Positions 16,951 through 31,788 of a stretch of 64,000 bases of DNA are shown here, one piece after another (the stretch's first letter is position 1; each line of letters opens with the position of its first letter). The notes beneath the pieces were generated by a model that made no database searches, had not been told where the DNA came from, and saw only the letters and a program-made list of their open reading frames with translations. The DNA lies in the NCBI RefSeq assembly GCF_947496995.1, contig NZ_CANMFD010000001.1, positions 678,692 to 742,691 on the forward strand, read 5' to 3'. The stretch is from an uncultured Roseibium sp. (GTDB lineage Bacteria > Pseudomonadota > Alphaproteobacteria > Rhizobiales > Stappiaceae). Made by a program: the position numbers and the translations under genes.

Positions 16951-17060
16951 TTTTTTGACTTCCAATCAGGGCGATCATGGCGTTAGTGCGCATGTCAAAG
17001 TGTCCTTACGTTGACAGAGGCGGTGCGGATGATCATGAACGGTAAAGGAAGAGCGGAATT

Positions 17061-18062
17061 ATGGCGGTGACGGGCAACACACCCCTCTCGCAGGCGCTCT
17101 GGTATACCGGCCCGGCGCAATGCGCAATCGATGTCGTGCCGTGCGAAGTGCCGCAGGCCGGCGATGTTCTGGTCCGGACTCTCTTCAGCGGTATCAGCCG
17201 GGGCACCGAAGGCCTGGTTTTCCGCGGAGAAGTTCCTGAAAGCGAATGGCAACGGATGCGGGCTCCCTTTCAGGCCGGTGACTTTCCTTTCCCGGTCAAA
17301 TACGGCTACGCCAACGTGGGCCGGGTGCTTGAAGGCGATCCTGACCTGGCCGGGCGTCTCGTTTTTTCGCTCTATCCGCATCAAAGCGTTTTTGTTCTCC
17401 CATCCAGTGCCTGCGTGCCTGTTCCGGCCGGCATTCCGGCCGAAAGAGCGGTTCTGGCGGCCAATATGGAAACCGCGATCAACGCTTTATGGGACGGAAA
17501 ACCATCACCTGGGGATCACATCTGCGTGGTTGGCGGCGGAGTTGTCGGATTGTTGACCGCCTATCTGGCAAGCAGGCTTCCCGGAACGAGGGTGACGCTG
17601 ATTGACACGAATGCCGCCAGGGCAGGAACGGCCGCGGATCTGGACCTGGACTTCGCGCTTCCCGAACAGGCTCCGCGCGATCAGGACCTCGTGTTTCACA
17701 CCAGCGCCAGCTCGGCCGGTCTTGCCACGGCGCTGGGCTGCGCCGGCGACGGAACCACCGTTATTGAAATGAGCTGGTATGGCTCCGGCGATGTTCTGGC
17801 GCCGCTGGGCGCGGATTTCCATTGCCGCCGGTTGAAGCTGGTCTCCAGTCAGGTGGGCACCATCCCGGTGGAGCGGCAGGCCCGCTGGACATTCCGGCGT
17901 CGGCTGGAAACCGCCCTGTCCCTGTTGCAGGACCCGGCTCTGGACCGGCTGATCAGCCACCGGGTGGATTTTCCGGATCTTCCCGCGCAGCTTCCCGAAT
18001 TGTTGAACAAGGCTTCCGATGTGCTGACGGCTCTGGTCGTCTATGAAGACGCGCCGGGCTGA
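17061..18062 (+). CDS. Zinc-type alcohol dehydrogenase-like (MDR) oxidoreductase
   Basis: 333-aa medium-chain dehydrogenase/reductase. The N-terminal GroES-like part is shortened. The Rossmann nucleotide-binding motif VVGGGVVGLLTAYLAS lies at about residues 156-171, followed by an acidic end of the second strand (LIDTN), which suggests NAD(H) preference. The usual GHE zinc-site pattern is not apparent. First gene of a four-gene run with a PTPS-fold protein, a glycosyltransferase and a methyltransferase; it is likely to reduce or oxidise the same small molecule (inference). Exact substrate unknown. Confidence 0.8.
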   Translation: MAVTGNTPLSQALWYTGPAQCAIDVVPCEVPQAGDVLVRTLFSGISRGTEGLVFRGEVPESEWQRMRAPFQAGDFPFPVKYGYANVGRVLEGDPDLAGRLVFSLYPHQSVFVLPSSACVPVPAGIPAERAVLAANMETAINALWDGKPSPGDHICVVGGGVVGLLTAYLASRLPGTRVTLIDTNAARAGTAADLDLDFALPEQAPRDQDLVFHTSASSAGLATALGCAGDGTTVIEMSWYGSGDVLAPLGADFHCRRLKLVSSQVGTIPVERQARWTFRRRLETALSLLQDPALDRLISHRVDFPDLPAQLPELLNKASDVLTALVVYEDAPG

Positions 18063-18110
18063 TCCCTTCACACCTCCATTCTCCCACTGAAATTTCAGGA
18101 TCCTAGTGAC

Positions 18111-18509
18111 ATGTATGCTGTTGAAGTTCGCGACCACGTGATGATTGCCCACTCTTTCAAGGGCGAGCTTTTCGGCCCCGCACAGGCGCTTCACGGGGCG
18201 ACATTCGTCATCGACGCGGCCTTTCTGGCCGAAACGCTGGATGCAAACGGCGTTGTCATCGACATCGGCCGCGCGCATGACGCCCTGAAGGAAGTGCTGC
18301 AGCCGCTCAATTACAAGAACCTCGACGAAGTACCCGCGTTTACCGGTACCAACACCACGACGGAGTTTCTCACCAAACATATTCACGACCATCTGGCGAA
18401 AGCCGCACGGGAGGACCGGCTCGGCCGGCCGGGAAGCGAGCTCGGCGCGATCCGGGTGACGATCTCGGAATCCCATGTCGCCCGAGCCTGGTATGAAGCC
18501 GCGATCTGA
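18111..18509 (+). CDS. PTPS/QueD-fold protein with altered active site
   Basis: 132-aa member of the 6-pyruvoyl-tetrahydropterin synthase/6-carboxytetrahydropterin synthase family. By-eye alignment to QueD keeps the first zinc His (H14, in MIAHSF), the second (H28, in LHGATF) and the C-terminal Glu (E120, in TISES). The catalytic Cys position is A24, the third zinc His is A30 and the Asp-His pair of DHxxLN is replaced by N67-Y68. It may therefore bind a pterin or GTP derivative without the usual chemistry, or catalyse a different step. It lies 48 bases after the MDR gene and 7 before the glycosyltransferase. Confidence 0.78.
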   Translation: MYAVEVRDHVMIAHSFKGELFGPAQALHGATFVIDAAFLAETLDANGVVIDIGRAHDALKEVLQPLNYKNLDEVPAFTGTNTTTEFLTKHIHDHLAKAAREDRLGRPGSELGAIRVTISESHVARAWYEAAI

Positions 18510-18516
18510 CCTCGGC

Positions 18517-19569
18517 ATGAAACAGCTCTTCTTCGCCTTTCCGGGAAACCTGGAGACGCCGACCGGCGGTTATGGCTACGACCGGCGGATCATTGCCGGG
18601 TTGCGCGATCTCGGCTGGCGGGTAGAGCTTGTGCCTCTCGGTGAGGAGTTTCCCCAAGCTTCGGAGATGACCCTGGCTTCGGCGGAAAAGCAGCTCGCTG
18701 CACTGCCTTCAGGCGCACTTGTGGTGATCGACGGGCTGGCCTTCGGCGTGATGGCGGCCGCAGCGGAGGCGCTTGGCAATCACCTGTGCCTGGTCGCGCT
18801 CGTCCATCATCCGCTGTGCCTGGAAAATGGCCTGACACCGGAAAAGGCCGAGGCAATGCGCGAAAGCGAGCACAAGGCGCTTGCCTTCGCCCGGCACGTG
18901 ATCGTCACCAGTCCCGCAACCGCCCGCCAGGTGGCCGATCTGTTTGAATATCCGCCAGACCGGATAACCGTTGTCCTGCCCGGAACCGACCACCCGAAAG
19001 CCGTTCCGGGTGAGCGCTCGAATGTGGTCAGGCTGCTTGCCGTCGGAACAATTGTGCCGAGAAAAGGCTATGACCTGCTGTTTCAGGGCCTCTCCGGACT
19101 ACCGGACAACAATTGGCATCTTGAGATTGTCGGAGGTCTGGAGGCCGATCCCGCCTGCTATCGTTCTTTGCTTCGCCAGATCGAGGATCTGAACCTTGCC
19201 GGGCGGATTACGTTTCGCGGCGCCGTTTCGCCTGAGGACCTCACGAGCTATTACAGCAATGCGGAAATCTTCGTGCTTGCCAGCCGTTACGAGGGATACG
19301 GCATGGCCTATACGGAAGCCCTGGCCCACGGCCTGCCGGTTATCGGCAGCGGCGACGGCGCCGTGCGGGACACCTTGCCTGAAGGGGCTTCGATTTATTG
19401 CGGCGTTGAAAACGTCGGAGCGCTGCGCGACGCCTTGGAACTTTTGATCACCGATGCTGCGGCACGCTCGCAAATGGCGGCTGCCGCCCGGATCGCCGCC
19501 GCAGCGCTTCCAGGTTGGCCGGACGCTGCCGCGCAATTTTCCCGAACCCTGCAGGAGCTTGCCGAATGA
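18517..19569 (+). CDS. GT4-type glycosyltransferase
   Basis: 350-aa retaining glycosyltransferase with a GT-B fold. The N-terminal domain opens with a glycine-rich acceptor loop (PTGGYGYDRR). The C-terminal domain has the GT4 patterns LAVGTIVPRKGYDLL (about residues 171-185) and the donor-binding EX7E-like segment ASRYEGYGMAYTEALAHGLPVI (about 255-276). The ATG at 18517 is preferred; in-frame ATGs at 18475 and 18493 would overlap the PTPS gene. It overlaps the methyltransferase start by four bases. Position in this operon suggests a small-molecule acceptor, perhaps a pterin, rather than a polysaccharide (inference). Confidence 0.82.
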   Translation: MKQLFFAFPGNLETPTGGYGYDRRIIAGLRDLGWRVELVPLGEEFPQASEMTLASAEKQLAALPSGALVVIDGLAFGVMAAAAEALGNHLCLVALVHHPLCLENGLTPEKAEAMRESEHKALAFARHVIVTSPATARQVADLFEYPPDRITVVLPGTDHPKAVPGERSNVVRLLAVGTIVPRKGYDLLFQGLSGLPDNNWHLEIVGGLEADPACYRSLLRQIEDLNLAGRITFRGAVSPEDLTSYYSNAEIFVLASRYEGYGMAYTEALAHGLPVIGSGDGAVRDTLPEGASIYCGVENVGALRDALELLITDAAARSQMAAAARIAAAALPGWPDAAAQFSRTLQELAE

Positions 19570-20372
19570 GCGGATTTTCATCTGAATGGCTGGCCTTGCG
19601 CGAGCCGCTCGACCTTGCGGCGAGAAATGCCGAAGTCGAGGAGGCATTTCTGGCGCAGTTGCCCGAAAGACCCCTGCGTATCCTCGATCTGGCGAGCGGC
19701 GCCGGATCGACGGTCGCCGCCCTGCACGGCAAGTTTCGCCAGCCGGTGACCTGGTTGCTCACCGATCATGATCCGGCCCTTCTGGAGGTCGCGGCTTCGC
19801 GCTGGAAAAAAGCAACCGGTGAAAGGTTGGAAACCCGTCAGCTCGATCTTTCCGGGAACCTTGAGGATCTGCCGCTCGCGGATGTGGATGCGGTGACGAC
19901 ATCGGCTTTTCTGGATCTTGTTTCAGACGGTTTCCTGCGCCGTCTCACCGACCGGATCGTCCGGGCCGGAAAACCGTTTCTTGCCAGCCTGACATATGAC
20001 GGACGCACGGCATTCGAACCTTCCCATCCCTTTGATGCGATCCTGGGCGCGGCCTTGAACGCACATCAGAAATCCGACAAGGGCTTCGGTCCGGCGCTTG
20101 GACCGGACGCCGCGGAGCGGGCCGCCGGCCTTTTTGAAGCGCAAGGATACAGCGTGGTTCGCGGATCGTCCGACTGGCAGGTTGGATCCGCTTCTGAAGG
20201 GTTCCTGTTGGAATTTCTGCAGGGCTGGCGTCGTGTCGGCCAAGAACTCGGGCTGGACGAAAGTTCTCTGAATGCATGGTGGGCTGATCGTCAGCGGAAG
20301 ATCCGCTCCGGCGAGCTTCACGTGGAGGTCGGCCACATCGATTTCGCAGCCTTTCCGCCATCCGCTCCTTGA
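19566..20372 (+). CDS. Class I SAM-dependent methyltransferase
   Basis: 268-aa methyltransferase. Motif I ILDLASGAGSTVAAL lies at residues 39-53, the acidic residue ending strand 2 in LLTDHD near 69, and DVDAVTTSAFLDLV near 105-118. The start overlaps the glycosyltransferase stop (ATGA). Last gene of the MDR/PTPS/glycosyltransferase operon, so it probably methylates the same product. Target atom unknown. The C-terminal part carries an AWWADRQRKI stretch that I do not recognise. Confidence 0.8.
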   Translation: MSGFSSEWLALREPLDLAARNAEVEEAFLAQLPERPLRILDLASGAGSTVAALHGKFRQPVTWLLTDHDPALLEVAASRWKKATGERLETRQLDLSGNLEDLPLADVDAVTTSAFLDLVSDGFLRRLTDRIVRAGKPFLASLTYDGRTAFEPSHPFDAILGAALNAHQKSDKGFGPALGPDAAERAAGLFEAQGYSVVRGSSDWQVGSASEGFLLEFLQGWRRVGQELGLDESSLNAWWADRQRKIRSGELHVEVGHIDFAAFPPSAP

Positions 20373-20460: not shown

Positions 20461-20991
20461 ATGGCCGAAGTGAATGAGCGTTACAGCCTTATTGCGCGTT
20501 CCATCCACTGGCTGACGGCGCTTCTGGTGCTGTCGATGGTGCCGGCCGGTCTGATCATGATCCGGATCAGCGGCGGACCGCTGCAGAACCAGCTCTTCGA
20601 CTTCCATCGCTCTGTCGGAGTGGTTCTGATGATCCTGACGGTCATCCGGCTGGCTTATCGGCTGACCCACCCTCCGGCACCCCTTCCGGCCGATATTCCC
20701 CCTGTGCAACAGTTGGCGGCGAAGGCCACTCACGTCTTTTTATATCTCTTCCTGCTGGTCAATCCGTTCATCGGATGGGTGGCGACATCCGCCTATGGAG
20801 CTTCGATATCGGTCTTCGGCGTGTTCACCATGCCTGCCATCGTTGCCAAGGACCGCGCCCTCGCAGAGCAGCTTTTCGCGGTCCACGAAATTCTCGGCCT
20901 GCTCTTTACGGCCGCAGTCCTGATGCACATCGCTGCGGCGCTCTATCACGGTATAATCCGCCGGGACGGCGTGCTGAGCCGGATGGTTTGA
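20461..20991 (+). CDS. Cytochrome b561-type di-haem membrane protein
   Basis: 176-aa inner-membrane b-type cytochrome with four hydrophobic helices. Candidate haem ligands are H16 (SIHWL), the His in DFHRSVG near 49, the His in AVHEILG near 143 and the His in LMHIAAALYH near 158. This is the YodB/CybB pattern. It carries electrons between quinol and a periplasmic partner such as superoxide or a c-type protein (family knowledge). It stands alone, preceded by 88 bases that include a GGAGAGACCGGC ribosome site. Confidence 0.88.
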   Translation: MAEVNERYSLIARSIHWLTALLVLSMVPAGLIMIRISGGPLQNQLFDFHRSVGVVLMILTVIRLAYRLTHPPAPLPADIPPVQQLAAKATHVFLYLFLLVNPFIGWVATSAYGASISVFGVFTMPAIVAKDRALAEQLFAVHEILGLLFTAAVLMHIAAALYHGIIRRDGVLSRMV

Positions 20992-21236
20992 GTGCCGCAA
21001 AGGTACTTGAAAACATAATTTTATAGATACTTCTGCTGATGCGCTGAAATCGAAGCCGATTTCCGGGGTGTGGTCAGTGATGTTTACACTTTGTTTACTT
21101 AACAAAATTTAACTAAAGTTGATTTGTAATTTTTTACCATGCCTCTTAAGTACAGTTTATTCTTTTTTTGCGAGAAATAGTGCTTCTAAACACAGTCATC
21201 GGTTCACGGTAACCGGCAGATATGGCAAGGATTGAC
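20992..21236. promoter_or_regulatory. AT-rich upstream region of the carrier-protein operon
   Basis: A 245-base gap, markedly A/T-rich from about 21080 to 21195 compared with flanking genes, with long T runs (21129-21135 and 21163-21170). It very probably holds the promoter of the ACP-ligase operon. I cannot assign -35/-10 boxes with confidence. No gene is seen. Confidence 0.5.
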
Positions 21237-21485
21237 ATGAAACAGGCTATTCGGACCCTCCTGGCGAAACACGGCAACCTGCCCGGCGCAATTGAAAGCA
21301 TCGATGACGGTGCGGATCTTTACGACGCCGGTCTGTCTTCCTTTGCATCGGTTCAGGTGATGCTGGCTCTCGAAGAGGAATTCGACATCGAGTTTCCCGA
21401 GCATCTGCTGAACCGCAAGTCGTTCTCCTCCGTCGACGCCATTGCGGCGGCGCTTTCCGAAATCGTCGAAGAACAGGCTGCCTGA
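21237..21485 (+). CDS. Acyl/aminoacyl carrier protein
   Basis: 82-aa carrier protein. The 4'-phosphopantetheine attachment serine lies in the pattern YDAGLSSFASVQVMLALEEEF, at the first or second Ser of GLSS. An AAGGA ribosome site precedes the ATG at 21237; an in-frame ATG at 21222 is less likely. It is followed within 3 bases by an acyl-CoA dehydrogenase and then an amino acid:[carrier protein] ligase, so it is expected to carry an amino acid rather than a fatty acid (inference from characterised homologues in Bradyrhizobium and Agrobacterium). Confidence 0.9.
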   Translation: MKQAIRTLLAKHGNLPGAIESIDDGADLYDAGLSSFASVQVMLALEEEFDIEFPEHLLNRKSFSSVDAIAAALSEIVEEQAA

Positions 21486-21488
21486 TCG

Positions 21489-22670
21489 ATGACCGCTGCC
21501 AGCAAGATCACCGCTCTGGCTCTGACAGACCGGGCCAAACGCGCCGCCAAGGTCGCTGCCGAATTTGCCGATCGGGTCGATACCGAGGGCCGGTTCCCCG
21601 CCGAGGGCATGGAAGCGCTGAAAGCCGAGCGGCTGCTGGGCATCATGATCCGTCCGGAGTTCGGCGGCGAGGGGGCAAGCCTCACCGAAGTCGCCAATGT
21701 CTGCGCGATCCTCGGCCAGGCCTGCGCCGCCACCGCCATGACCTACGCCATGCACCAGATCCAGATCGCGAGCCTTGCCGATTACGCGCCGGGTAGCAAC
21801 TGGCATGAGGCGTTCCAGAAACGGATCTGCGACGACCAGCTCCTGATTGCCTCCGCGACCAGTGAAGCGGGCATTGGCGGCAACCTTCGCAACTCGCTGT
21901 GTGCGACCGAGGTCGAGGGGGACATTGTCCGCCTGACCAAGGATGCCACCGTGATCTCCTACGGCGCCAAGGCCGATGCCATCATGGTCACCTCCCGCCG
22001 TCATCCGGACGCCGCCCATTCCGATCAGGTCGCGACGATTTTCCTGAAGGATCAATACACGCTCGAGCAGACCAGCAAATGGGACACGCTCGGCATGCGC
22101 GGCACCTGTTCCGACGGCTATATCTTCAAGGCGGAAGCGCCCGCCGAACAGATCCTGCCGCGTCCCTTCGCCGAGATTGCCGCCCAGTCCATGCTGGCCG
22201 TGTCTCACCTGTTGTGGGGTGCGCTCTGGTACGGGATCGCCGCGGATGCGGTGGCGCGCGCCCAGAGCTTCGTCAAGGCCGCCGCGCGCAAGACGCCGGG
22301 TCAGGTGCCTCCCGGCGCACTGCGCCTCGCCGAGGCCTCAAGCCTGTTGCAACTGGTCAAGGCCAATGTGGTCGCCGGCCTCAAGCAGTTCGAGGGCGCC
22401 AAGGGCGACGGCGATGCGCTGAACGCGATGAGTTTCTCGGTCGCCATGAACAACATCAAGATCGGCACCTCGCAGACCATCCTGACGATCATCAACCACT
22501 GCATGCTGATCTGCGGCATTGCCGGATACAAGAACGGCACGCCTTTCAGCCTCGGCCGGCATCTGCGCGATGCCCATTCCGCCCAGTTGATGATTTCCAA
22601 CGACCGCATTCTGGGCAACACGTCGACAATGCTGCTGGTCAACAAGCAAGACACAAGCCTTTTGGGGTAA
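21489..22670 (+). CDS. Acyl-CoA dehydrogenase family flavoprotein
   Basis: 393-aa flavin-dependent dehydrogenase with the three-domain ACAD layout: a helical N-terminus; a beta domain with SATSEAGIGGNLRNS near 120-134 and KWDTLGMRGTCSDG near 198-211; and C-terminal helices with RHLRDAHSAQLMISNDRI at the end, which is the FAD/active-site region of the family. Lies 3 bases after the ACP. The likely substrate is an aminoacyl or acyl group on that carrier, giving an alpha,beta-unsaturated or imino product (inference). The catalytic base cannot be assigned by eye. Confidence 0.87.
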   Translation: MTAASKITALALTDRAKRAAKVAAEFADRVDTEGRFPAEGMEALKAERLLGIMIRPEFGGEGASLTEVANVCAILGQACAATAMTYAMHQIQIASLADYAPGSNWHEAFQKRICDDQLLIASATSEAGIGGNLRNSLCATEVEGDIVRLTKDATVISYGAKADAIMVTSRRHPDAAHSDQVATIFLKDQYTLEQTSKWDTLGMRGTCSDGYIFKAEAPAEQILPRPFAEIAAQSMLAVSHLLWGALWYGIAADAVARAQSFVKAAARKTPGQVPPGALRLAEASSLLQLVKANVVAGLKQFEGAKGDGDALNAMSFSVAMNNIKIGTSQTILTIINHCMLICGIAGYKNGTPFSLGRHLRDAHSAQLMISNDRILGNTSTMLLVNKQDTSLLG

Positions 22671-23582
22671 ATGATGGACGCGCAAGTCTCTTTTCTGGAT
22701 CAGCTCTTCTCCAAAGGGGTGCTGCACGATAGCGGTGTCGACGGTCTTTATGCCCGCAGCGGTGAATTCGAGGATGTTATTTCGAGGTTCGAAACCTTCG
22801 CGCTTTCCTACGGCAAGGACGAGATTTCCGAAGCCATGGTCTTCCCGCCCGGCATGACCATGCAGGATTTCGAAACCAGCGGTTACATGAAGAGCTTCCC
22901 CCAGCTGGCGGGAACGGTTCATGCCTTTTGTGGCAACGATCACGACCATATGGGTCTGTTGCAATGTATGGCCGCCGGCGAGGACTGGTCGAAGGGCCAG
23001 AAACCGACCCAGGTCGCGCTCACGCCTGCCGCCTGCTATCCGCTTTACCCGATCCTCTCCCGGCGGGGTCCTCTGGCGGAGGAGGGGGCTTATGTCGCTC
23101 TTCAGTCCTACTGTTTCCGGCACGAACCTTCCAAGGATCCGGCGCGGATGCAGATGTTCCGCCAGCGCGAATATGTACGTGTCGGCTCCGCGGACCAGAC
23201 CATGGCTTTCCGGGAAACCTGGAAGAAGCGCGGCCAGGACATGATGCAACGGCTGGAGCTGCCGCATTACGTCGATGTCGCCAACGATCCTTTTTTCGGC
23301 CGCGCCGGCAAGATCATGGCGTCAGGTCAGCGCGAACAGGAACTGAAGTTCGAAATGCTGGTGCCGATCACCTCGCAGGAAAATCCGACCGCCTGCATGA
23401 GCTTCAACTATCACATGGACAATTTCGGCAAGGCCTGGGACATCCGTCAGGCGGACGGCGCTCCCGCGCACACCGCTTGTGTCGGCTTCGGTCTCGAGCG
23501 GATTGCCCTCGCTCTTTTCCGCCATCACGGCTTCGACACGGCCAGTTGGCCTGAAGGCGTCAGATCGGCCCTTTGGGGCTGA
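22671..23582 (+). CDS. Amino acid:[carrier protein] ligase (class II aaRS-like)
   Basis: 303-aa homologue of the catalytic core of the unusual methanogen-type seryl-tRNA synthetase, without a tRNA-binding arm. Visible motif 2 is CFRHE...QREYVR (148-170) and motif 3 is GFGLERIALALF (272-283). Probable zinc ligands are C122, E167 and C270; the spacing of 45 and 103 residues matches what I recall for Bradyrhizobium Bll0957. Family members activate Gly, Ala or a similar small amino acid and load it on a dedicated carrier protein. It abuts the dehydrogenase stop. The next-codon ATG (22674) is an equal start candidate. Confidence 0.9.
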   Translation: MMDAQVSFLDQLFSKGVLHDSGVDGLYARSGEFEDVISRFETFALSYGKDEISEAMVFPPGMTMQDFETSGYMKSFPQLAGTVHAFCGNDHDHMGLLQCMAAGEDWSKGQKPTQVALTPAACYPLYPILSRRGPLAEEGAYVALQSYCFRHEPSKDPARMQMFRQREYVRVGSADQTMAFRETWKKRGQDMMQRLELPHYVDVANDPFFGRAGKIMASGQREQELKFEMLVPITSQENPTACMSFNYHMDNFGKAWDIRQADGAPAHTACVGFGLERIALALFRHHGFDTASWPEGVRSALWG

Positions 23583-23598
23583 GAGGATCGAGCACCCC

Positions 23599-24621
23599 AT
23601 GACGCAAGCCGTCTTTGACACTTTGAGTGCAGACACCTACGTGCGCAGCCCGCTGCATGCGCAGGAGCGCGACTGGCCCGAGACCAACTGCTATCTTGAT
23701 GTCTGGATCGAGGTTCTGCCGTCGCTCGGCCTGCCGCCGGAAGCCTGCCTTGCCTATTCGCTCACCCAGGACTTCGAAGGCGATCAGTTCACCTTCTTCA
23801 AGGTTCCTCTGGAGGATCTGGAAGCGCTCTATGGCCTGAAGGTCACCGAACTGGCGATCTACGACCGGGTGGAAAACCACGTTCAGCAGCAGATCGAACG
23901 CGGCCGCCTGTCGCTGGTCGAGGTGGACAGCTATTTCCTGCCCGACACACAGGGCGTCGGCTACCACGCGACCCACGGCAAGACGACCGTCGCCGTCAAC
24001 CGGATGGACTTCGAAAACCGGACGATGGACTATTTCCACGGCCTCGGCCTGCACCGTCTGGAAGGCGACGATTTCGACGGCGTGTTCCAGCGCGGCGCGC
24101 ATGCCGGCCCAATGCCGTTCCTGCCCTACACCGAGTTCGTGAAATTCCCCGACAGGCTGCCGTCGCAGCAGCATATTCTGGCTGTTTCCGAGGATCTGTT
24201 GCGCCATCACCTGAAGCGCAGGCCGGCCGAAAATCCGGTGGCGGCATTCGCCGCGGTGTTCCCGGCGCAGGTCGAGAAGGTGAGCGAGCGCGCGTTCGAT
24301 TTCTTCCATCTTTATGCCTTCAATACGCTGCGCCAGCTCGGCGCCAATTTCGAGCTGTTTTCCTCATATCTGGACTGGTTGACTGCGCAGGGACGGCCCG
24401 GACTTGCCGAAGCCGCTGTCGAGGCCAAGGCGATTTCCACCACCTGCAAGACGGTTCAGTTCAAGCTGGCCAGGGCGGTGATGCGCAAGAAGTTCCAGGG
24501 GCTTGACGAAAGTCTGCTTCCGGCGGTGACCGCCTGGGACAGCCTGATGAGCCATCTTGACCGGCACTATGGTGACGGCGAGGCAAGCCTTGCGCCCGTG
24601 GTCAGCGCAGCCGAGGCCTGA
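23599..24621 (+). CDS. DUF1839 family protein
   Basis: 340-aa cytoplasmic-looking protein with no signal or membrane segment. It matches the DUF1839 pattern I associate with carrier-protein ligase clusters. Visible features are an N-terminal TNCYLDVWIEVL, a central stretch with HATHGKTT and FENRTMDYFHGLGLHRL, and a helical C-terminus. Function unknown; the conserved location between ligase and GH2-like genes suggests it receives or transfers the carrier-bound aminoacyl group (inference). The ATG at 23599 was chosen because the earlier in-frame region overlaps the ligase. Stop abuts the next start. Confidence 0.75.
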   Translation: MTQAVFDTLSADTYVRSPLHAQERDWPETNCYLDVWIEVLPSLGLPPEACLAYSLTQDFEGDQFTFFKVPLEDLEALYGLKVTELAIYDRVENHVQQQIERGRLSLVEVDSYFLPDTQGVGYHATHGKTTVAVNRMDFENRTMDYFHGLGLHRLEGDDFDGVFQRGAHAGPMPFLPYTEFVKFPDRLPSQQHILAVSEDLLRHHLKRRPAENPVAAFAAVFPAQVEKVSERAFDFFHLYAFNTLRQLGANFELFSSYLDWLTAQGRPGLAEAAVEAKAISTTCKTVQFKLARAVMRKKFQGLDESLLPAVTAWDSLMSHLDRHYGDGEASLAPVVSAAEA

Positions 24622-27039
24622 ATGGCCGATTTAGCCGCAGCGCAATGGACCGTCGCGCTAAGTTCGCCTGGCTCTGAAGAGGCCGGGGACATGCGATTGC
24701 AAGACGTTCCGGCGAAAGTTCCCGGAACGGTCGCCTCAGCCCTTGCCGCCGCCGGTCTTTACGATCCTGAAAATCCGCACCCGCTGCATGACAGGGACGC
24801 CTGGTACCGGACGGAATTCGACGCCGAACCGGGCCGCTACCGGCTGGCGTTCGACGGCCTTGCGACGATCACCGAAGTCTGGCTGAACGGCGAACGTCTT
24901 CTGGACAGCCGGAACATGTTCCGAAGATATGAGGCTGAAGCCGAGCTGTCGGAAAGCAACAGACTGGAAATCTGCTTCCGGGCGCTGGAACCGCATCTGA
25001 ACGCCAGGGGGCCGCGCGCCCGCTGGAAGCCGCAACTGGCGACCTCGCAGGGCTTGCGCCTGATCCGCACCACGCTTCTGGGCCACATGCCCGGCTGGTG
25101 CCCGGAGATACACGCCGTCGGCCCCTATCGGCCGATCCGGATTGAACCGGCTGACGCGCCCCGGATCACCGGCACGCACATCCTCGCCGATCTCGCTCCG
25201 GACGGCAGCGCAACCCTCACGGTGTCACTGAAACTCGAAAACGCCGGCGGTACGCCCGAGCTGTCCTGTGCGGGAACCACAGCCGAAATGATCCGGCAGG
25301 AGGACGGCCGCTGGACGGCGGTGCTGAGACCGGCTGATGTCACCGCCTGGATGCCGCACACCCATGGCACGCCTGCGCTGTATGATGTCTCTGTAAAAGA
25401 GGGTGACCAGCGGTTTTCCCTCGGAAAAACCGGCTTCCGCCGCCTGGACGTCGATCACGGCCTGGACGGCAAGGGGTTCGGCCTGAAGGTCAACGGTGTG
25501 TCCGTTTTCTGCCGTGGCGCCGTGTGGACCTGTGCCGATCTGCTCAACCTGCCCGGCGATGCGGACAGCTACCGGCCGCTTCTGGAAGCGGCCCGCGACG
25601 CAGGCATGAACATGCTGCGCATCGGCGGCACCATGCTCTACGAGACCAGGGCATTTTTCGACATTTGCGACGATCTGGGCCTGCTGATCTGGCAGGATTT
25701 CCAGTTCGCCAATTACGACTACCCGGTCAAGGACGAGGCGTTCGTCCAGGAGGTTCGCGCCGAGGTCCACGACCAACTTGCCAAAACCCAAGGGAGCCCG
25801 TCGCTGGCTGTTCTGTGCGGAGGCAGCGAGATCTATCAGCAGGGGGCCATGATGGGCCTGCCGGAAGAGCGCTGGAAAGGTCCGCTGTGCGAGGAAATCC
25901 TGCCGGAACTGGCTGGCCGCCTCCGGCCCGACGTGCCTTACGTGCCGAATGCGCCATCAGGTGGCGTGCTGCCGTTTTCACCTGGAGAAGGCATCGCCCA
26001 CTACTACGGCGTCGGTGCCTATCTGCGCCCGCTGGAGGACGCTCGCCGCGCCAATGTCCGCTTCGCCGCCGAGTGCCTGGCTTTTTCCAACATCCCCGAA
26101 CAGCGCAGCCTCGACGAAGGCCTGCCTGGCATCAAACCCGGGCACGATCCGCGCTGGAAAGCGCGTGTCCCGCGCGATCGCGGCGCGGGCTGGGACTTCG
26201 AGGATGTCCGCGACCACTATCTGAAAACGCTATACGGGATCGACCCGGCAGCCCTGCGCTACGGCGATCCGGATCGTTACCTCGATCTCGGCAGGGCGGT
26301 GACCGGCGAGCTCATGGAACAGACATTTGCCGAATGGCGGCGCGAAGGCTCCTCCTGTCAGGGGGCGCTGGTCTGGACCTTCCAGGATCTCGCCATGGGA
26401 GCGGGCTGGGGTGTGATCGACGCGGCCGGCAGGCCGAAGCCGGCCTTCTACGCCCTGAAGCGGGCCTTCCGTCCTCTTCAGGTCTCGCTCACCGACGAAG
26501 GCACCGGCGGCCTTGCCATTCATGTCATCAACGAAAGACCCGAGGAAAAGCAGGTCACGCTCTCGCTTGAGTGCCTGCGGGACGGTCAGGTGCCGGTGGT
26601 CTCGGGACGAAAGGATCTGATCCTCAACCCGCACAGCATGCAGTCCCTCAACGCGGTTGAGCTGATCGGTGCGTTCTTCGACGTCACCTATGCCTACCGC
26701 TTCGGCCCGCCCTCGCATGATGTGACAGCGGTGAGGATGCTGGACACGGAGACAGGTGAAGTCCTGGCCGAGACGTTTCATTTTCCGGACCGTTTTGATC
26801 GTGGGCTGCATCAGCTGGAGATCAGGTCGGAGTTAAGCAGAAGCCGGACAGGGCTTTTTCAATTGGAAATTGAGACGGACCGGCTAATCAGGTTCGTGCA
26901 GATCAACTGCGATACGCATCAGCCGGAGGAGAACTGGTTCCCTCTTGCTCCCGGCGCCAAAAAGAAGATCGGTTTGCAGCCAACCGCCGGATCTGGCGCT
27001 CTTGATGAGCCCCCAAAGTGTCAGGTCTCAGTGCTTTAA
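24622..27039 (+). CDS. GH2 family-like glycoside hydrolase (beta-mannosidase type)
   Basis: 805-aa protein with GH2 architecture: a galactose-binding-like jellyroll (about 1-170), an immunoglobulin-like sandwich, a TIM barrel (about 285-560) and C-terminal beta domains. No signal peptide is seen, so it is probably cytoplasmic. The acid/base region reads LCGGSEIYQQ with E403; clan GH-A enzymes normally have Asn before this Glu, here Ser. E484 in FAAECLAFS is the probable nucleophile. It starts directly at the DUF1839 stop, so it belongs to the ACP-ligase operon. Its substrate may be a glycoconjugate made by that pathway (inference). Confidence 0.8.
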   Translation: MADLAAAQWTVALSSPGSEEAGDMRLQDVPAKVPGTVASALAAAGLYDPENPHPLHDRDAWYRTEFDAEPGRYRLAFDGLATITEVWLNGERLLDSRNMFRRYEAEAELSESNRLEICFRALEPHLNARGPRARWKPQLATSQGLRLIRTTLLGHMPGWCPEIHAVGPYRPIRIEPADAPRITGTHILADLAPDGSATLTVSLKLENAGGTPELSCAGTTAEMIRQEDGRWTAVLRPADVTAWMPHTHGTPALYDVSVKEGDQRFSLGKTGFRRLDVDHGLDGKGFGLKVNGVSVFCRGAVWTCADLLNLPGDADSYRPLLEAARDAGMNMLRIGGTMLYETRAFFDICDDLGLLIWQDFQFANYDYPVKDEAFVQEVRAEVHDQLAKTQGSPSLAVLCGGSEIYQQGAMMGLPEERWKGPLCEEILPELAGRLRPDVPYVPNAPSGGVLPFSPGEGIAHYYGVGAYLRPLEDARRANVRFAAECLAFSNIPEQRSLDEGLPGIKPGHDPRWKARVPRDRGAGWDFEDVRDHYLKTLYGIDPAALRYGDPDRYLDLGRAVTGELMEQTFAEWRREGSSCQGALVWTFQDLAMGAGWGVIDAAGRPKPAFYALKRAFRPLQVSLTDEGTGGLAIHVINERPEEKQVTLSLECLRDGQVPVVSGRKDLILNPHSMQSLNAVELIGAFFDVTYAYRFGPPSHDVTAVRMLDTETGEVLAETFHFPDRFDRGLHQLEIRSELSRSRTGLFQLEIETDRLIRFVQINCDTHQPEENWFPLAPGAKKKIGLQPTAGSGALDEPPKCQVSVL

Positions 27040-27055
27040 CGCGACAGGCTACAAC

Positions 27056-28828
27056 TCATGACTGGCTGCGCGTTGCCGTCGATTGAAGTGAGTGCGCGGC
27101 CTTGAGAAGCAGATCCGTAAGGGCATGACGCGCGTGGTCTGGCATCAGGCAATGATCCGAGTCCCCAATGGTGCTGTAGGAAATATTTCGAAACTGAGAA
27201 AAAGCTTCAAACTTGGGCCCGAAATGGACTTTGAGCAGGTTGATGCTTTCATCTCCAAGGGTACAGAAAATGTGAACGGGGATATTTCGATCTCGTAGCG
27301 TTTCGAACATATCCAAAGCTTCGAGCCTCATTCTACCAAGGCTGGTCATGCGCGGAAAGAAAGGCGTGATCTTTTCCGCGGTCCTTTGTTTGAGCAGCCT
27401 TGCGATGCCGAGCGATGCAGCGCGGATATTGATCTGTCCTTTGAATAGCCTCTTGAATATTTGAGGGTCGAGGAGGCGTTTTTTGTATTCTTCGGTCGAT
27501 CTGTGACCCATATATTTCAAGTTGACCGGAACTTTCGGATCCCAGATATATTTCAGTTGGTTCACGAGTATCAGTTGGCGAACCCTTTGATCGCGCGCGG
27601 CTAAATGAAACGCCGAGTAGGCACTGCTGCAACGGCCGACCAGCGTTATGGGGCCCTCGAACCGGGCTGCCGCAAAATCAACGATGTTTTTAAAATCCTG
27701 GATTGAGGTTTCGGAATAGAGGGTTTCCTCGCCCGCAGGTAGGTCCGGATAGCTGTCACCGGTGTTCGAACCATCAAAGCGGATGGATATGGCGCCCGCC
27801 TCGGCCAGAGCCCGGGCCGCGGTCACGGAATCCCGCGCCAGACCGCCGTGATGATCATACCCGCCAGTGTTACCGAAAATAAAAACTGGAGCATCTGGCG
27901 AGCAGGACACCGGGCGTGTCGTGACCGTCAGCAACTTCTTTTTCCTGGTCTCGACAAATGCAGCTGTTTCAGTAAAGTTGTCTGCCGTCAGAACCGGAGG
28001 ATATTTGTCGGCGTTGACGGGAGCCGGAAAACTTTTCCGCGCAGGTTGCGTTTCTCTCATCCAACCAAGACAGCTTTCGATCAGGTCGAAGGGCACTTTC
28101 GAAGTCAATACCTCCGCTGTCAGGTCCTCGAACTCGTGAAATTCTTTAACTGTAACATGTCTCGACCGCGCCTTTAGATCTTTAGCGTAGCTGCAGTCGC
28201 TCTTGTTCTTTCCTCTGGAAAAGAACAAGAGCGGAATTTGTGTCAGTGTGGCCGGATCGTCCAGCTTCTTGCGCGACACATCTTCCGCGACTTTTCCGGG
28301 CATCACGTTTCCCAGAACGGATGTCTTTCTGGTATCCAGAAGGTTGAGCGGAATATGCTCCGTCTCGTAAAGCATCTTGGCGAGAAGGTTTATTTCCCGG
28401 ATATATCGGCGCCCGTTGACGATGGGCGCAGCGATGATGGCCCCCGACAAATCATGCCGCCTCCCGGCCAACTCATGAGACACAACGGCACCGAGGCCCA
28501 ATCCGAAGACCACGATCCTTTCACAGCCGGAGATGTCCTTCAGAACATCAGCACTTTTTTCGGCTCCCCGCACCCAGTCTTCAAGGCCTTCATCCGCATC
28601 GGGATCGAGCGAGTCGACAGTTCCTGAATAGTCGAAGCGCAAAGTGGGATAACCGGACGCGGCCAGGACGTCGGCCAGGGTGCGGTAGAACTTTCTGCAA
28701 CAGACCTCGTCGCGCCCCCAGGGGCGGCAAAGCAGGACACCTGTCTCACACCGGACTCTGCCCACCGGATAAGATACGAGTGCCGAAAGGCCTTCATAGG
28801 CAACTGGGCACGTATCGGTTTCAGACAT
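27056..28828 (-). CDS. Tandem alpha/beta-hydrolase protein in EPS locus
   Basis: 590-aa protein built of two alpha/beta-hydrolase domains (about 15-260 and 300-580). The first nucleophile elbow reads GLGLG at 109-113, with Gly where Ser is expected, so it is probably inactive. The second reads GRCSS at 398-402, placing Cys400 at the nucleophile position, with a late His in DSDHCLMP as catalytic His candidate. It resembles hydrolases that accompany exopolysaccharide/exosortase loci. It starts 14 bases downstream of the flippase end on the same strand, so the two are probably co-transcribed. Substrate unknown. Confidence 0.7.
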   Translation of the reverse strand: MSETDTCPVAYEGLSALVSYPVGRVRCETGVLLCRPWGRDEVCCRKFYRTLADVLAASGYPTLRFDYSGTVDSLDPDADEGLEDWVRGAEKSADVLKDISGCERIVVFGLGLGAVVSHELAGRRHDLSGAIIAAPIVNGRRYIREINLLAKMLYETEHIPLNLLDTRKTSVLGNVMPGKVAEDVSRKKLDDPATLTQIPLLFFSRGKNKSDCSYAKDLKARSRHVTVKEFHEFEDLTAEVLTSKVPFDLIESCLGWMRETQPARKSFPAPVNADKYPPVLTADNFTETAAFVETRKKKLLTVTTRPVSCSPDAPVFIFGNTGGYDHHGGLARDSVTAARALAEAGAISIRFDGSNTGDSYPDLPAGEETLYSETSIQDFKNIVDFAAARFEGPITLVGRCSSAYSAFHLAARDQRVRQLILVNQLKYIWDPKVPVNLKYMGHRSTEEYKKRLLDPQIFKRLFKGQINIRAASLGIARLLKQRTAEKITPFFPRMTSLGRMRLEALDMFETLRDRNIPVHIFCTLGDESINLLKVHFGPKFEAFSQFRNISYSTIGDSDHCLMPDHARHALTDLLLKAAHSLQSTATRSQS

Positions 28829-28842
28829 TAAACTTCCTCAAT

Positions 28843-30348
28843 TCAGTTCCGGGGAGTTGCCCCCAGAACGGCAATCACAGGCTTCACTAGGGCTCTGAAA
28901 CGCGTTGGAGTGTAGGTATTGAGCGCGGTTCCGACTATTTCCAGTTCTTCGCCCGGAATGGATTTCGTGATCCTGAGTGCGATCAAATAGACGACGGCTG
29001 CCACCGGTATCGCAAGTAGCACACCGGAGAGCCCGCCCAACTCCGCCAGAACGAGGTAGGCGCATAGCGCGCAGGCCAGCCCGGAAACAAGAGTTCTTGC
29101 CAGCGAGTTGAGATTGATATTCAGGCCAAGACGGGTGTGGCAGTGATAAATCAGCCAGAGGAACGTTGCTAAACCTGTAGCGCCCCTGATCAATGCCGCT
29201 GCCAGACCGCCGAACATCGGCGTAAAAATCAGGTTCAGAGTTATCAGGATGAATGCGGCCAATCCATTGATATAAAGAATTTTTCTGTCTTTTTCGAAGG
29301 CGAGCATCGCGGAAAGGGGGACAGAGGAAAGAGCCGGTGGCAAGGAGAAGAGCACAAGAGTGTACGCTACGGGGATTGCAGGCAAGAAGTCACTTCCGTA
29401 TGCCAGCGGAATAAGCTCCGGCATGATTACGGCTCCTCCCAAGCTGACAGGCAACAGCAGTAGTGTGAGCCACCTTATCGAGCGGTCGTAGGAAACCTTC
29501 AGTTGCTCGGTGGCACCATCGTCAAAGAACTTGCCAAAGCTTGGGGTCAGGCCTGCGGCCAAATAGAGAGAAAGCTGGAGAATCAGACTGGAAAATGTCA
29601 CCCCGGCCGCAAAATAACCCACTTCGACGACGGTAAAAAAGTAGCCGATGAACAAGAGTTCGACGCGTGTCTTGACCAAAGTGTCGAGCAGGACGGATAT
29701 CCAGTTGCTTTGACCATATCTGACCATCTGGTCCGTGATCTCGACATCCGCAGTGCCGGATTTGGATCTGTAATCCCTCAAACCCACAGCTTGGGGAACG
29801 TAGCGCGCGAGATAGCCCAGCATCGCGCCCGCAGGCCCCAGGAAAAAAGCACCTGCAATCGTGGTGGGAATTTGCAGGGCGCATCCGATCGCGGTCTTCT
29901 GAGCGGTTCTATGAAAGTGCCCAAGACCATGGTCGGCAGCGACTACGAAATGGCCTTGAGCGTAAGCAAGGCAAATGAGCCCGGCAATCGCCCAGACGAA
30001 CGCGTTGTTTATGTCGATCGTGAAATAATCATAGAGGCCGTAAAGCAGAAAGCTGAAGCAGACTATCAGAACGAGGCGGATATATTTCCTGTAGAGCTGT
30101 GTCACAAGGCCGGTCTGATCTTCCGGCGTTTCTTTTTTGCGTGAGATGTACCGCAATATGATTGCGGGAATTCCCCTGCCGGCCACAATGGCTCCGGTGA
30201 TCGCCACCCATGACGCCAAGGCGGTCAGCCCCGTACCTTCTGCTCCGAGCAGGCGGGCAATCACGATAGAGCAGAAAAAACCCGCAATCATCGACATAAG
30301 CCCGGACGCGGAAACAAAGAAACTCGCACTGAGAATGGACTGCATCAC
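28843..30348 (-). CDS. Polysaccharide flippase (Wzx/MOP family)
   Basis: 501-aa integral membrane protein with about 12-14 hydrophobic helices. The N-terminal SILSASFFVSASGLMSMIAG and the next helix SIVIARLLGAEGTGL match the O-antigen/EPS flippase signature. It moves undecaprenyl-linked repeat units across the inner membrane (family knowledge). Located with GT4 enzymes, a Wzy-like polymerase and a chain-length regulator. Codon usage looks less GC-rich than the housekeeping genes, common for surface-polysaccharide loci. A 240-base gap with no gene precedes the next unit (30349-30588). Confidence 0.88.
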   Translation of the reverse strand: MMQSILSASFFVSASGLMSMIAGFFCSIVIARLLGAEGTGLTALASWVAITGAIVAGRGIPAIILRYISRKKETPEDQTGLVTQLYRKYIRLVLIVCFSFLLYGLYDYFTIDINNAFVWAIAGLICLAYAQGHFVVAADHGLGHFHRTAQKTAIGCALQIPTTIAGAFFLGPAGAMLGYLARYVPQAVGLRDYRSKSGTADVEITDQMVRYGQSNWISVLLDTLVKTRVELLFIGYFFTVVEVGYFAAGVTFSSLILQLSLYLAAGLTPSFGKFFDDGATEQLKVSYDRSIRWLTLLLLPVSLGGAVIMPELIPLAYGSDFLPAIPVAYTLVLFSLPPALSSVPLSAMLAFEKDRKILYINGLAAFILITLNLIFTPMFGGLAAALIRGATGLATFLWLIYHCHTRLGLNINLNSLARTLVSGLACALCAYLVLAELGGLSGVLLAIPVAAVVYLIALRITKSIPGEELEIVGTALNTYTPTRFRALVKPVIAVLGATPRN

Positions 30349-30588: not shown

Positions 30589-31788
30589 TCATACCGGACC
30601 TTTGTTACGATCTACCGCGGCACCCAGCGCTTGCGTATAGGCTGTGCCTATCCTGGAAGCCCTGTAGTCATCTGCGCTGGAAAGAGCACCTCTGGAGAAG
30701 GCTTCGTACATCTGCGGGGCTGAGGCTATCTGCCACAAGGCGTTCTTGAGAGCGAGAGGGTCCTGTGGAGGCACATGAAGGCCGTTGATGCCCGGAACGA
30801 TGGTTTCGGCAATTCCGCCCAGACTGGAGCCGATGACTGGAATCGCGTGAGAAAAGGCCTCCACGGCAACCCTTCCGAACGCTTCGCGACCGATCGAAGG
30901 AAACGCCAGCAGGTCGATCTGCGGAAAGAAAATTTCCGGCTCGATCCAGCCAAGAAATTTTGTCGTTCGAGCCGGAAAACGGGCCCGAACCTCCTCGGCA
31001 AAGGCATCGCGGCCAGTTCCCGCAATGTAAAACTCAAGAGGGTATTCCTTCGGAAGTAGCCGCACGGCTTCCGCAAGGACATCTATTCCCTTGAATTGCG
31101 TATGCGCGCCTATGAAGCCAATACGGAACGGCCGGCCGGCTGGATAGGATCTAGCCATCATCGCGCACTCGTCGGGAATGGCACCCGGAATACGTTGTGG
31201 CACGGCATTGCGGAAATAGCCCTCTTTCAAGTGGCGTTGAAGGATATCGTCGGATTCGCCTATCGCCAGATCCACGAATCTGGAGAAAAAAAGTTTCCCG
31301 ATGGCGGTCAGGCGGCAGCTCCCGCATTGCCTGTCGCATGCGTGCCCGGATTTTTGCATAACACCTTTCCAGCAGAGCAGAAATGCGCTGCGGATCGTAT
31401 GAGCAACCGGTAGCCCTAGCGATTTTGCGGCTGCCCAAGTCGCCACATTGATGTTCTCGATGCTGTCCGTCAAAACGATATCGGGATTGAAGCTTTGTAT
31501 TTCCCGCCGCATGAAGCTGTAGGCACGCGGATTTCCGTTTTCCAGCATGTGCCAGCATGCTTTTTTCCAGCTCGGTCGGGGCAAGTGATAGTTCCAATAG
31601 AGATTGAGCGGTTTTATCCGATGGACCGGAATGCCCTGATAGGTCTCAAACTTCTCTTCATCGCTGGCATTTACGACCCGAACGTCGTGCCCTTCGTTTT
31701 TAAGAAGCGTTGCGACCACGAGAGCGGAAACAGGTCCCCCGCCGTCGACAAAGGGTGGGAATGCTGCGCACGGCATCAAAATTCGCAT
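30589..31788 (-). CDS. GT4 family glycosyltransferase
   Basis: 399-aa GT-B glycosyltransferase of the EPS locus. The N-terminal acceptor domain opens with MRILMPCAAFPPFVDGGGP. The donor domain includes RIGFIGAHTQFKGIDVLAEA (about 222-241) and the GT4 segment FPSIGREAFGRVAVEAFSHA (about 296-315, an EX7E-type pattern). A cysteine cluster near 137-152 (CWKGVMQKSGHACDRQCGSC) suggests a small metal-binding loop, a trait of a GT4 subgroup. Adds a sugar to a lipid-linked intermediate in the cytoplasm. Divergent from the deacetylase gene across an AT-rich 243-base gap. Confidence 0.87.
   Translation of the reverse strand: MRILMPCAAFPPFVDGGGPVSALVVATLLKNEGHDVRVVNASDEEKFETYQGIPVHRIKPLNLYWNYHLPRPSWKKACWHMLENGNPRAYSFMRREIQSFNPDIVLTDSIENINVATWAAAKSLGLPVAHTIRSAFLLCWKGVMQKSGHACDRQCGSCRLTAIGKLFFSRFVDLAIGESDDILQRHLKEGYFRNAVPQRIPGAIPDECAMMARSYPAGRPFRIGFIGAHTQFKGIDVLAEAVRLLPKEYPLEFYIAGTGRDAFAEEVRARFPARTTKFLGWIEPEIFFPQIDLLAFPSIGREAFGRVAVEAFSHAIPVIGSSLGGIAETIVPGINGLHVPPQDPLALKNALWQIASAPQMYEAFSRGALSSADDYRASRIGTAYTQALGAAVDRNKGPV

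Follow-up and report, generated by a model that had tools for sequence, protein, structure and literature searches.

The window analysed here, a stretch of 64,000 nucleotides from an uncultured Roseibium sp., carries a five-gene operon which, judged by analogy with the condensation step of lincosamide biosynthesis, may well encode a carrier-protein (CP) line for attaching an amino acid to a sugar as a tag (we put the probability of this reading at about 0.55). The operon itself is real and goes beyond a chance arrangement. Its neighbourhood has been known since 2010 and the papain-like fold of its fourth protein, DUF1839, since 2023; new here are the CcbD-like match of DUF1839, an alpha/beta hydrolase (ABH) partner, and an apparent swap of the ligase for another loading enzyme, with a suggested cargo. 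With the CcbD match and the ABH, what had been predicted in loose terms becomes a pathway of ordered, testable steps. To our knowledge, the amino acid:CP ligases are enzymes without a known product, and the literature searched (mostly without subscription journals) yielded neither a product for such a pathway nor a case of a replaced ligase.

A fuller version of the proposal is tentative, and we would not rate it above one chance in three or so. Here the ligase and an NRPS adenylation (A) domain would be natural stand-ins for each other, swapped at least twice among close relatives. Their shared cargo would be L-serine; once this is oxidised on the CP, DUF1839 would couple it to an amino sugar that forms part of a lipid-linked glycan, and a flippase-coupled Cys hydrolase would complete and export the product, in a logic like that of MprF with a CP in place of tRNA.

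Layout and conservation of the operon

All five genes lie on the + strand, with intergenic gaps of 3, 0, 16 and 0 bases. They encode a CP of 87 aa (21222–21485; PF00550, NF005480), an ACAD-fold flavoprotein of 393 aa without the catalytic Glu (21489–22670; PF02771/PF00441), a SerRS-like amino acid:[carrier protein] ligase of 303 aa (22671–23582; NF005479), DUF1839, a predicted papain-like transferase with C31/T130/H147 (23599–24621; PF08893), and a GH2-like glycosidase of 805 aa, related to beta-mannosidases and carrying E403 and E484 (24622–27039; PF22666). The packed genes are those of the initial annotation, which had placed the CP start at a later, alternative ATG (21237). No sigma-70-like promoter was found in 20900–27200, and terminator-like sites in the same interval were not above those of shuffled sequences. 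By eye, no NRPS was recognised among the ORFs of the window (family scans covered a minority of them), and the earlier suggestion that the operon's loading line does without an NRPS module is supported. NRPS genes are present elsewhere in the genome, on contig 5.

The order CP-ACAD-ligase-DUF1839-GH2, all on one strand, is found in 79 of the best 80 of 590 loci of ligase relatives, a set biased to near kin because it holds the best matches. Several matches among the ligase loci are partial (e.g. L055, L058, L070, L094, L115, L120), owing to contig ends or split genes. Of 385 genomes sampled evenly across the class, 5 have DUF1839, which adjoins the ligase in all five; the ligase itself was above cut-off in 10 of the 385, five of these being without DUF1839. 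A phylum sample gave DUF1839 in 16 of 398 genomes, and the seven loci taken from these 16 (L140–L146) all have the five genes in order. Within the family, with related species counted as separate genomes as in all co-occurrence figures given here, ACAD is present in 51/51 DUF1839 genomes versus 0/36 others (E <= 1e-40), and GH2 likewise in 51/51. The conserved order and the joint presence of ACAD and GH2 with DUF1839 rule out chance neighbours and support the five genes as one functional unit, as had been proposed; the genome survey named earlier as a refuter, should the genes rarely co-occur, finds them nearly always together. The upstream block at 17061–20372 (BchC-like dehydrogenase, PTPS family, GT4, methyltransferase) was rejected as part of the operon core because 7 of the best 80 of 590 loci have relatives of the dehydrogenase, PTPS and methyltransferase genes at a distance of up to 10 kb. 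For GT4 relatives the figure is 23 of these 80, many being weak matches. A DUF1839 locus can also decay, as in genome G003.

The neighbourhood set out in 2010, in which Atu2573 is presumably the ligase, shares with this operon an ACP, a redox enzyme, a conserved ORF and a glycosidase beside the SerRS-like ligase. The description, a note in proof by Iyer et al., lists these genes (the uncharacterised ORF being Atu2574) together with liposaccharide genes, and predicts an amide bond between the amino acid and a cell-surface amino sugar (PMC2922099). The system is therefore not undescribed, as had been thought. Unlike the present account, the text of 2010, in the part available and Additional file 1 apart, does not contain the ABH, the flippase fusion, the replaced ligase or serine (PMC2922099).

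Proposed sugar acceptor and export

The GH2-like protein matches the PF22666 GH2 N-domain (62.8 bits) and a beta-mannosidase of the PDB (E 2.2e-47). E403 and E484, the pair of catalytic Glu expected of a GH2 beta-mannosidase, are present in 76/76 sequences and lie opposite the Glu of GNNE and of SEFG in 2vjx, and GWCPEI replaces the WDWG motif, which we take to be the sugar-site motif of GH2 beta-mannosidases. Next to it, on the - strand, is the double ABH (27056–28828), recognised by co-occurrence as a sixth partner that was missing from the initial annotation. It has a strong match in all 68 DUF1839 genomes tested (51/51 in the family, 15 candidates being scored per genome, and 17/17 in a second search with 33) versus 2 of 59 others, among them 23 DUF1839-negative genomes hand-picked to stand beside the 17 (20 of the same order and 3 ligase genomes). 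C400, D526 and H559, in its C half, are conserved in 53, 52 and 52 of 53 sequences. Its resemblance to exosortase-associated hydrolases stays below the cut-offs (TIGR03100, 79.1 of 168.45 bits; TIGR03101, 53.3 of 202.75). In a rhizobial cluster of 24 loci the ABH is fused to a flippase in an ORF of about 1103 aa (domains checked in L073). In L126 and L129, no Pfam family was matched by the sequence that separates the ligase from the ABH.

In the window a Wzx/MOP-type flippase (28843–30348, - strand; PF13440/PF01943) lies beside the ABH. The surroundings include a GT4 glycosyltransferase (30589–31788, - strand; PF13692/PF00534), a polysaccharide deacetylase (32032–33141, + strand; PF01522) that could free an amine on a hexosamine, and a relative (33178–34326, + strand) of a GT4-type protein encoded downstream of the operon in 35 of the best 80 of 590 loci. 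This relative is 53.7% identical over 365 aa to L060:15514-16695, which matches GT4 models. Glycosyltransferases, flippases and deacetylases also lie downstream of the operon in other genera, and ABC-transport components are among the first 25 downstream families.

Neighbours, co-occurrence and the gene fusion would place the tagged sugar in a lipid-linked surface glycan, this last step being the weakest of the proposal. GH2 might trim the glycan in the cytosol and the Cys-type ABH carry out a further acyl step, both roles being guesses, and the Wzx-type flippase would move the product outward. A hydrophobic N-terminus is absent from CP, ACAD, ligase, DUF1839, GH2 and ABH. MprF and Dlt put cytosol-activated amino acids on surface molecules by means of a flippase or a membrane acyltransferase; in the operon, by comparison, neither a tRNA step nor a gene resembling DltB or DltD was recognised. 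The same chemistry could instead yield an exported soluble small molecule, such as an amino-acid/amino-sugar conjugate, a signal or a metal binder, with the polysaccharide genes as mere neighbours. All three proteins that DUF1839 resembles in structure come from the biosynthesis of small natural products, and downstream genes differ between genera, with ABC-transport components among them. However, the flippase–ABH fusion in 24 loci, the finding, in several genera, of glycosyltransferase and flippase genes downstream of the operon, and the likeness of the ABH to hydrolases named for exosortase systems make a soluble product a minority option, of perhaps one chance in four.

Probable loading of the carrier and apparent replacement of the ligase

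The CP scores 117.4 bits against NF005480 (cut-off 72), and its phosphopantetheine serine, S40 in the motif DAGLSS, shows a conservation of 98% or more across 75 sequences. The ligase, with 487.9 bits against NF005479 (amino acid--[ACP] ligase; cut-off 357) and a match to the Bll0957 structures at E 8e-87, is a catalytic core only (303 aa, where related SerRS models have 518 positions and 3w3s has 527 aa). C122, E167 and C270, presumably zinc-binding by comparison with Bll0957, do not vary among 10 diverse ligases, and in a set of 81 their conservation is 98% or higher; the spacing remarked on earlier holds. The assignment to the Bll0957 type with a carrier of its own is supported. As is known for its relatives, the ligase would activate an amino acid with ATP and load it onto the neighbouring CP.

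Among the family's 51 genomes with DUF1839, 4 lack the ligase. A search with 12 candidates scored per genome found a stand-alone NRPS A domain in exactly these four: 47 genomes have the ligase without the A domain, and 4 the A domain without the ligase. The four A domains (L152–L155) score 294–300 bits against PF00501, have no carrier domain by Pfam, and lie away from the operon in four unrelated neighbourhoods; in 4/4 the specificity code equals the serine code of EntF at 10/10 positions. The CPs of these species have the same motif with S40. From its mutual exclusion with the ligase, the A domain appears to load the operon's carrier in ligase-less species, the code predicting L-serine. Because of this exclusion and the EntF code, the two loaders seem interchangeable and serine a likely cargo, which leaves the earlier expectation of Gly or Ala in doubt. 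Bll0957-type ligases favour Gly or Ala in vitro, and serine may therefore represent a change of cargo, not the common one. An A domain with a readable code in place of the ligase permits sequence-based prediction of the cargo, and the replacement, if true, would be a case from nature in which loading of the tRNA-synthetase-like kind and of the NRPS-like kind can be exchanged.

In the tree, L149 groups with L046, and L150 groups with L047, each time with support of 100; L046 and L047 carry the ligase. Elsewhere the placement of branches is supported at 43–100, and a tree built from DUF1839 alone has low support near the ligase-less tips. These pairings rule out a single loss of the ligase, and the change took place at least two separate times; possibly both loaders were held early and one was lost later. 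That the A domain is unrelated to the operon, the ligase-less operons being loaded by some other enzyme or decaying, seems improbable. It does lie elsewhere in the genome, and occurs also in 2 of the 36 family genomes without DUF1839 (G066 and G068), with the same serine code in both and in the vicinity of an MBOAT and of a protein of ACP size that has no Pfam match; the decay in G003 offers a precedent for the second possibility. Set against this are its presence in 4/4 ligase-less versus 0/47 ligase-bearing DUF1839 genomes, the repeated change, and ACADs in the four genomes that are still 88–93% identical to that of the window, with no stops.

Proposed oxidation and transfer on the carrier

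At the place of the ACAD catalytic Glu (the YEGT place, located by alignment), 76 of 79 sequences have Ile and 3 have Val, and H89 is conserved in 79/79. Since the catalytic Glu is missing, plain alpha,beta-desaturation is unlikely, and the second step, oxidation of the carrier-bound amino acid, would more probably be an oxygenation or Calpha-N oxidation. The initial annotation had read ACAD as a dehydrogenase of the ordinary alpha,beta type acting on amino acids bound to the carrier, to which we would give about one chance in five. The fold is equally close to dehydrogenases and monooxygenases (Z 40.0 to the acyl-CoA dehydrogenase ACADSB and 39.2 to monooxygenases, a tie within the range 38–40), and the structural matches include ColB1, a carrier-dependent relative that dehydrogenates cysteine. 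Besides the replacement of Glu in every sequence, the best PDB sequence matches, which by a small margin are nitrososynthases (3mxl, E 4e-11, versus 2e-9 for a dehydrogenase), argue against it, as does CaeB1, for which use of a Glu at that place has been proposed (PMC8149447).

DUF1839 scores 433.9 bits against PF08893. Its structure model (pLDDT 87.7) matches CcbD, AziU3 and CtaG over the whole length with Z of 16.5–19.5, the next match being at 8.4. The closest is CcbD (Z 19.5, rmsd 3.5, 289 aligned), followed by AziU3 (Z up to 18.5) and CtaG (up to 18.0), at 11–15% identity. When the PDB sequences were searched with a profile at E <= 10, CcbD was not among the matches, and no residue alignment was obtained. 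C31, T130 and H147 are invariant in 34 sequences, as are K284, Q287, R292 and R296 of a helix; the canonical-order Cys-His-Glu triad of the CcbD/LmbD type is absent, with C31-T130-H147 instead. DUF1839 was put in the papain-like fold in 2023, with its His and Ser/Thr in swapped places (PMC10318531). CcbD joins a CP-bound amino acid, via its Cys, to an amino sugar, and its carrier-binding arginines resemble the DUF1839 helix by position only (PMC12945683). DUF1839 is thus predicted to be a papain-like transferase; of the release or transfer envisaged earlier, the whole-length match of the model favours transfer. By fold and residues, Cys31 would accept the acyl group, which would then be passed on to an amino sugar at its amine.

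Proteins of the papain-like fold are most commonly hydrolases, and a thioesterase that frees the modified amino acid, with no sugar acceptor, would suit the fold and invariant Cys, yet this is unlikely, as the close structural relatives reported so far include carrier-to-amine condensing enzymes, above all CcbD, and the GH2 found in every one of the family's 51 genomes with DUF1839 points to a sugar. Closthioamide CtaG and azinomycin AziU3, at their low identity, are likened to DUF1839 by fold alone. The lincosamide condensation (LmbC/CcbC, carrier, LmbD/CcbD) shares with the proposed transfer a stand-alone adenylating enzyme, a carrier, a papain-like Cys transferase and an amino sugar acceptor (PMC12945683, PMC4351081). 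DUF1839 has no detectable sequence similarity to a solved CcbD, and the operon further differs in its tRNA-synthetase-like loader in most species and in its additional flavoprotein, GH2 and ABH.

A conserved five-gene operon

Genes for a carrier protein, an ACAD-fold flavoprotein (ACAD), an amino acid:[carrier protein] ligase, DUF1839 and a GH2-like enzyme lie on the plus strand at 21222–27039, with gaps of only 3, 0, 16 and 0 bases. The operon coordinates, gene families and Cys/Glu/Cys residues of the ligase in the initial annotation are correct. Among named relatives of the ligase, the closest comes from Labrenzia sp. OB1 (97%), and the genome is of the Roseibium/Labrenzia type. With an alignment of ten ligases as query and one genome per species, the best 80 of 590 ligase relatives were taken, a list skewed toward near kin. 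Co-occurrence of the five genes was found at 79 of these 80 loci, in identical order and strand, the exception (L105) being a locus where carrier and ligase alone were detected. Median intergenic gaps across the ligase loci are -1, 4, 8 and 28 bases. An even sample of the class (385 genomes) gave DUF1839 in five genomes, with the ligase adjacent in all five, and the ligase above cut-off in ten. Within a phylum sample of 398 genomes, DUF1839 is present in 16, four of them belonging to one family outside the class, and the complete ordered set was seen at all seven loci inspected from these 16 (L140–L146). The five-gene pathway is real and conserved. DUF1839 is duplicated within 6 kb in one genome, G766 (L140:7437–8366 and 12241–13197), and a second, G699, also carries two copies.

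Other layouts occur among the relatives. DUF1839, GH2 and the hydrolase gene ABH described below are all missing from three loci that have ACAD and ligase (L125, L127 and L128), the carrier being detected in L125 and L127 and not in L128. L126 and L129 have an ABH relative together with carrier and ligase, and no ACAD. A homoserine O-succinyltransferase and a PLP enzyme of Cys/Met metabolism adjoin two of the ligase loci that lack DUF1839 (L127:14338–16610 and L128:5700–8010), a hint that these belong to another pathway, one linked to sulphur.

The system had been proposed as undescribed, a view that does not stand, as its outline was in print in 2010: a note in proof (PMC2922099) places ACP, a redox enzyme, a glycosidase, liposaccharide genes and the highly conserved, uncharacterised Atu2574 in the ligase neighbourhood. 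Amino acid:carrier protein ligases are also covered by a review (PMC9437257), and the literature searched reports no product of the pathway. New here are support from structure for the amide-forming step that had been predicted, a further gene that co-occurs with the five (ABH, the sixth), and an apparent natural swap of loaders, which points to serine.

Predicted roles of ACAD, DUF1839 and GH2

DUF1839 is present in 51 of the 87 genomes of the window's family. ACAD (E <= 1e-40) occurs in all 51 and in none of the other 36. Its canonical base is absent, the place, as set by alignment, being taken by Ile or Val in 79/79 sequences, and H89 is invariant. E372 has been proposed as the base of CaeB1, an enzyme whose substrate is cysteine bound to a carrier (PMC8149447). 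The top PDB sequence matches of ACAD are nitrososynthases, by the small margin of 46 bits vs 40 for a dehydrogenase, and in structure comparison the dehydrogenase and monooxygenase relatives tie.

PMC10318531 places DUF1839 in the papain-like fold and gives its triad as C(T/S)H. Its structure, predicted here from 34 sequences (pLDDT 87.7), gave 18 Foldseek matches at E up to 0.001, exclusively to AziU3, CtaG and CcbD. By VIA-align the model matches CcbD with Z 19.5 (rmsd 3.5, 289 aligned), AziU3 with Z 18.5 and CtaG with Z 16.5–18.0, the best after these three being 8.4. Residues C31, T130 and H147 are invariant in the 34 sequences. According to a 2025 review (PMC12945683), carrier-tethered proline passes to the cysteine of CcbD and then to the amine of a thiooctose. 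From the predicted fold and these residues we infer that DUF1839 may work like CcbD; family membership is not claimed, and a DUF1839 profile search did not recover any CcbD sequence.

The GH2-like enzyme is related to beta-mannosidases (E 2.2e-47). Both catalytic glutamates are invariant in 76 sequences and a hydrophobic N-terminus is absent; judged from its sequence, it is cytosolic and probably active as a glycosidase. Because the WDWG motif is replaced, its sugar is probably other than mannose. All 51 DUF1839 genomes of the family carry it at 53% identity or more, the copy in G010 being in two pieces, one of 48%, and distant relatives alone (30–37% identity) occur in five genomes without DUF1839.

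A sixth partner and an apparent exchange of loaders

Immediately downstream, on the minus strand (27056–28828), ABH encodes two alpha/beta-hydrolase halves. The nucleophile of the N half is lost (Gly in 48/53), and the C half has Cys400 in 53/53, Asp526 in 52/53 and His559 in 52/53. ABH lies within 10 kb at 58 of the best 80 of 590 ligase loci. A strong match (E <= 3e-97) is present in every one of the family's 51 DUF1839 genomes, including G037, where the reading frame crosses a stop, and G062, where the gene is spread over contigs. The 36 genomes without DUF1839 have weak matches only, save a broken copy in G003. There, adjoining broken remnants of GH2 and ABH are found (L151:9310–16669), with no match in that region to carrier, ACAD, ligase or DUF1839, and the gene set seems to decay together. 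Outside the family, ABH occurs in 17/17 genomes with DUF1839 and in 2/23 without, both of the latter (G217 and G402) being ligase loci. Since ABH is at least 70 kb away in four family genomes, and on another contig in three of the 17, the co-occurrence goes beyond what linkage alone explains. In a cluster of ORFs of ~1103 aa (24 loci), ABH is joined to a Wzx-type flippase, the domains having been confirmed by family search in L073 alone.

The ligase scores above cut-off in 47 of the 87 family genomes, all within the 51 with DUF1839. The remaining four (G031, G038, G052 and G060) lack a ligase above cut-off and keep the usual placement of carrier, ACAD, DUF1839 and GH2, the ends of ACAD and DUF1839 being 18 to 123 bases apart. 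When these four genomes and six ligase-bearing ones were searched for amino-acid adenylation domains, the top four matches were one short protein (728–754 aa) from each ligase-less genome. By Pfam this protein has AMP-binding domains and lacks a carrier domain. At E <= 1e-150 this A domain occurs in six of the 87 genomes: 4/4 ligase-less, 0/47 ligase-bearing and 2/36 without DUF1839. The coincidence with ligase absence has a chance of 1 in 249,900 if genomes are assumed to be independent, which they are not. In a nine-gene tree two ligase-less species pair with ligase-bearing ones at support 100, implying at least two changes, and no flanking genes are common to the four A domains. The A domains would have taken over carrier loading, and the loader appears exchangeable. 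The two A-domain genomes without DUF1839 have an ACP-sized protein without Pfam match and an MBOAT nearby (L156:8616–18703 and L157:811–10905).

All six A domains carry the code DVWHFSLVDK, the same as that of EntF, at the ten specificity positions, located by alignment from E. coli EntF; this suggests a serine cargo. In vitro, ligases of the Bll0957 type reportedly favour Gly or Ala, so the cargo may have changed.

Genomic surroundings

At 16 loci, most of them from different genera, 66 ORFs lie 3' of GH2; alpha/beta hydrolases, GT4 glycosyltransferases, flippases and GT2 enzymes are the most frequent families among these ORFs, with three occurrences each of GumK and polysaccharide deacetylase and four of ABC-transport components. 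Many rhizobia (e.g. L060:6282–8400) have EpmA (EF-P lysine ligase) and a lysine-2,3-aminomutase-like gene immediately 5' of the operon; the clusters of these two genes, with names taken from L060 only, are found at 40 and 34 of the best 80 of 590 ligase loci. Upstream in the window, a block at 17061–20372 codes for a BchC-like dehydrogenase, a PTPS-family protein, a GT4 and a methyltransferase; it is retained at seven of these best 80 loci, as well as in the four ligase-less species. A GT2-family glycosyltransferase (Pfam) at 15133–16965, reminiscent of OpgH, lies within 10 kb of the operon at eight of the same best 80. Another contig of the window's genome (G000:C5:249663–274432) holds large NRPS genes, with ORFs of 1633 to 7599 aa.
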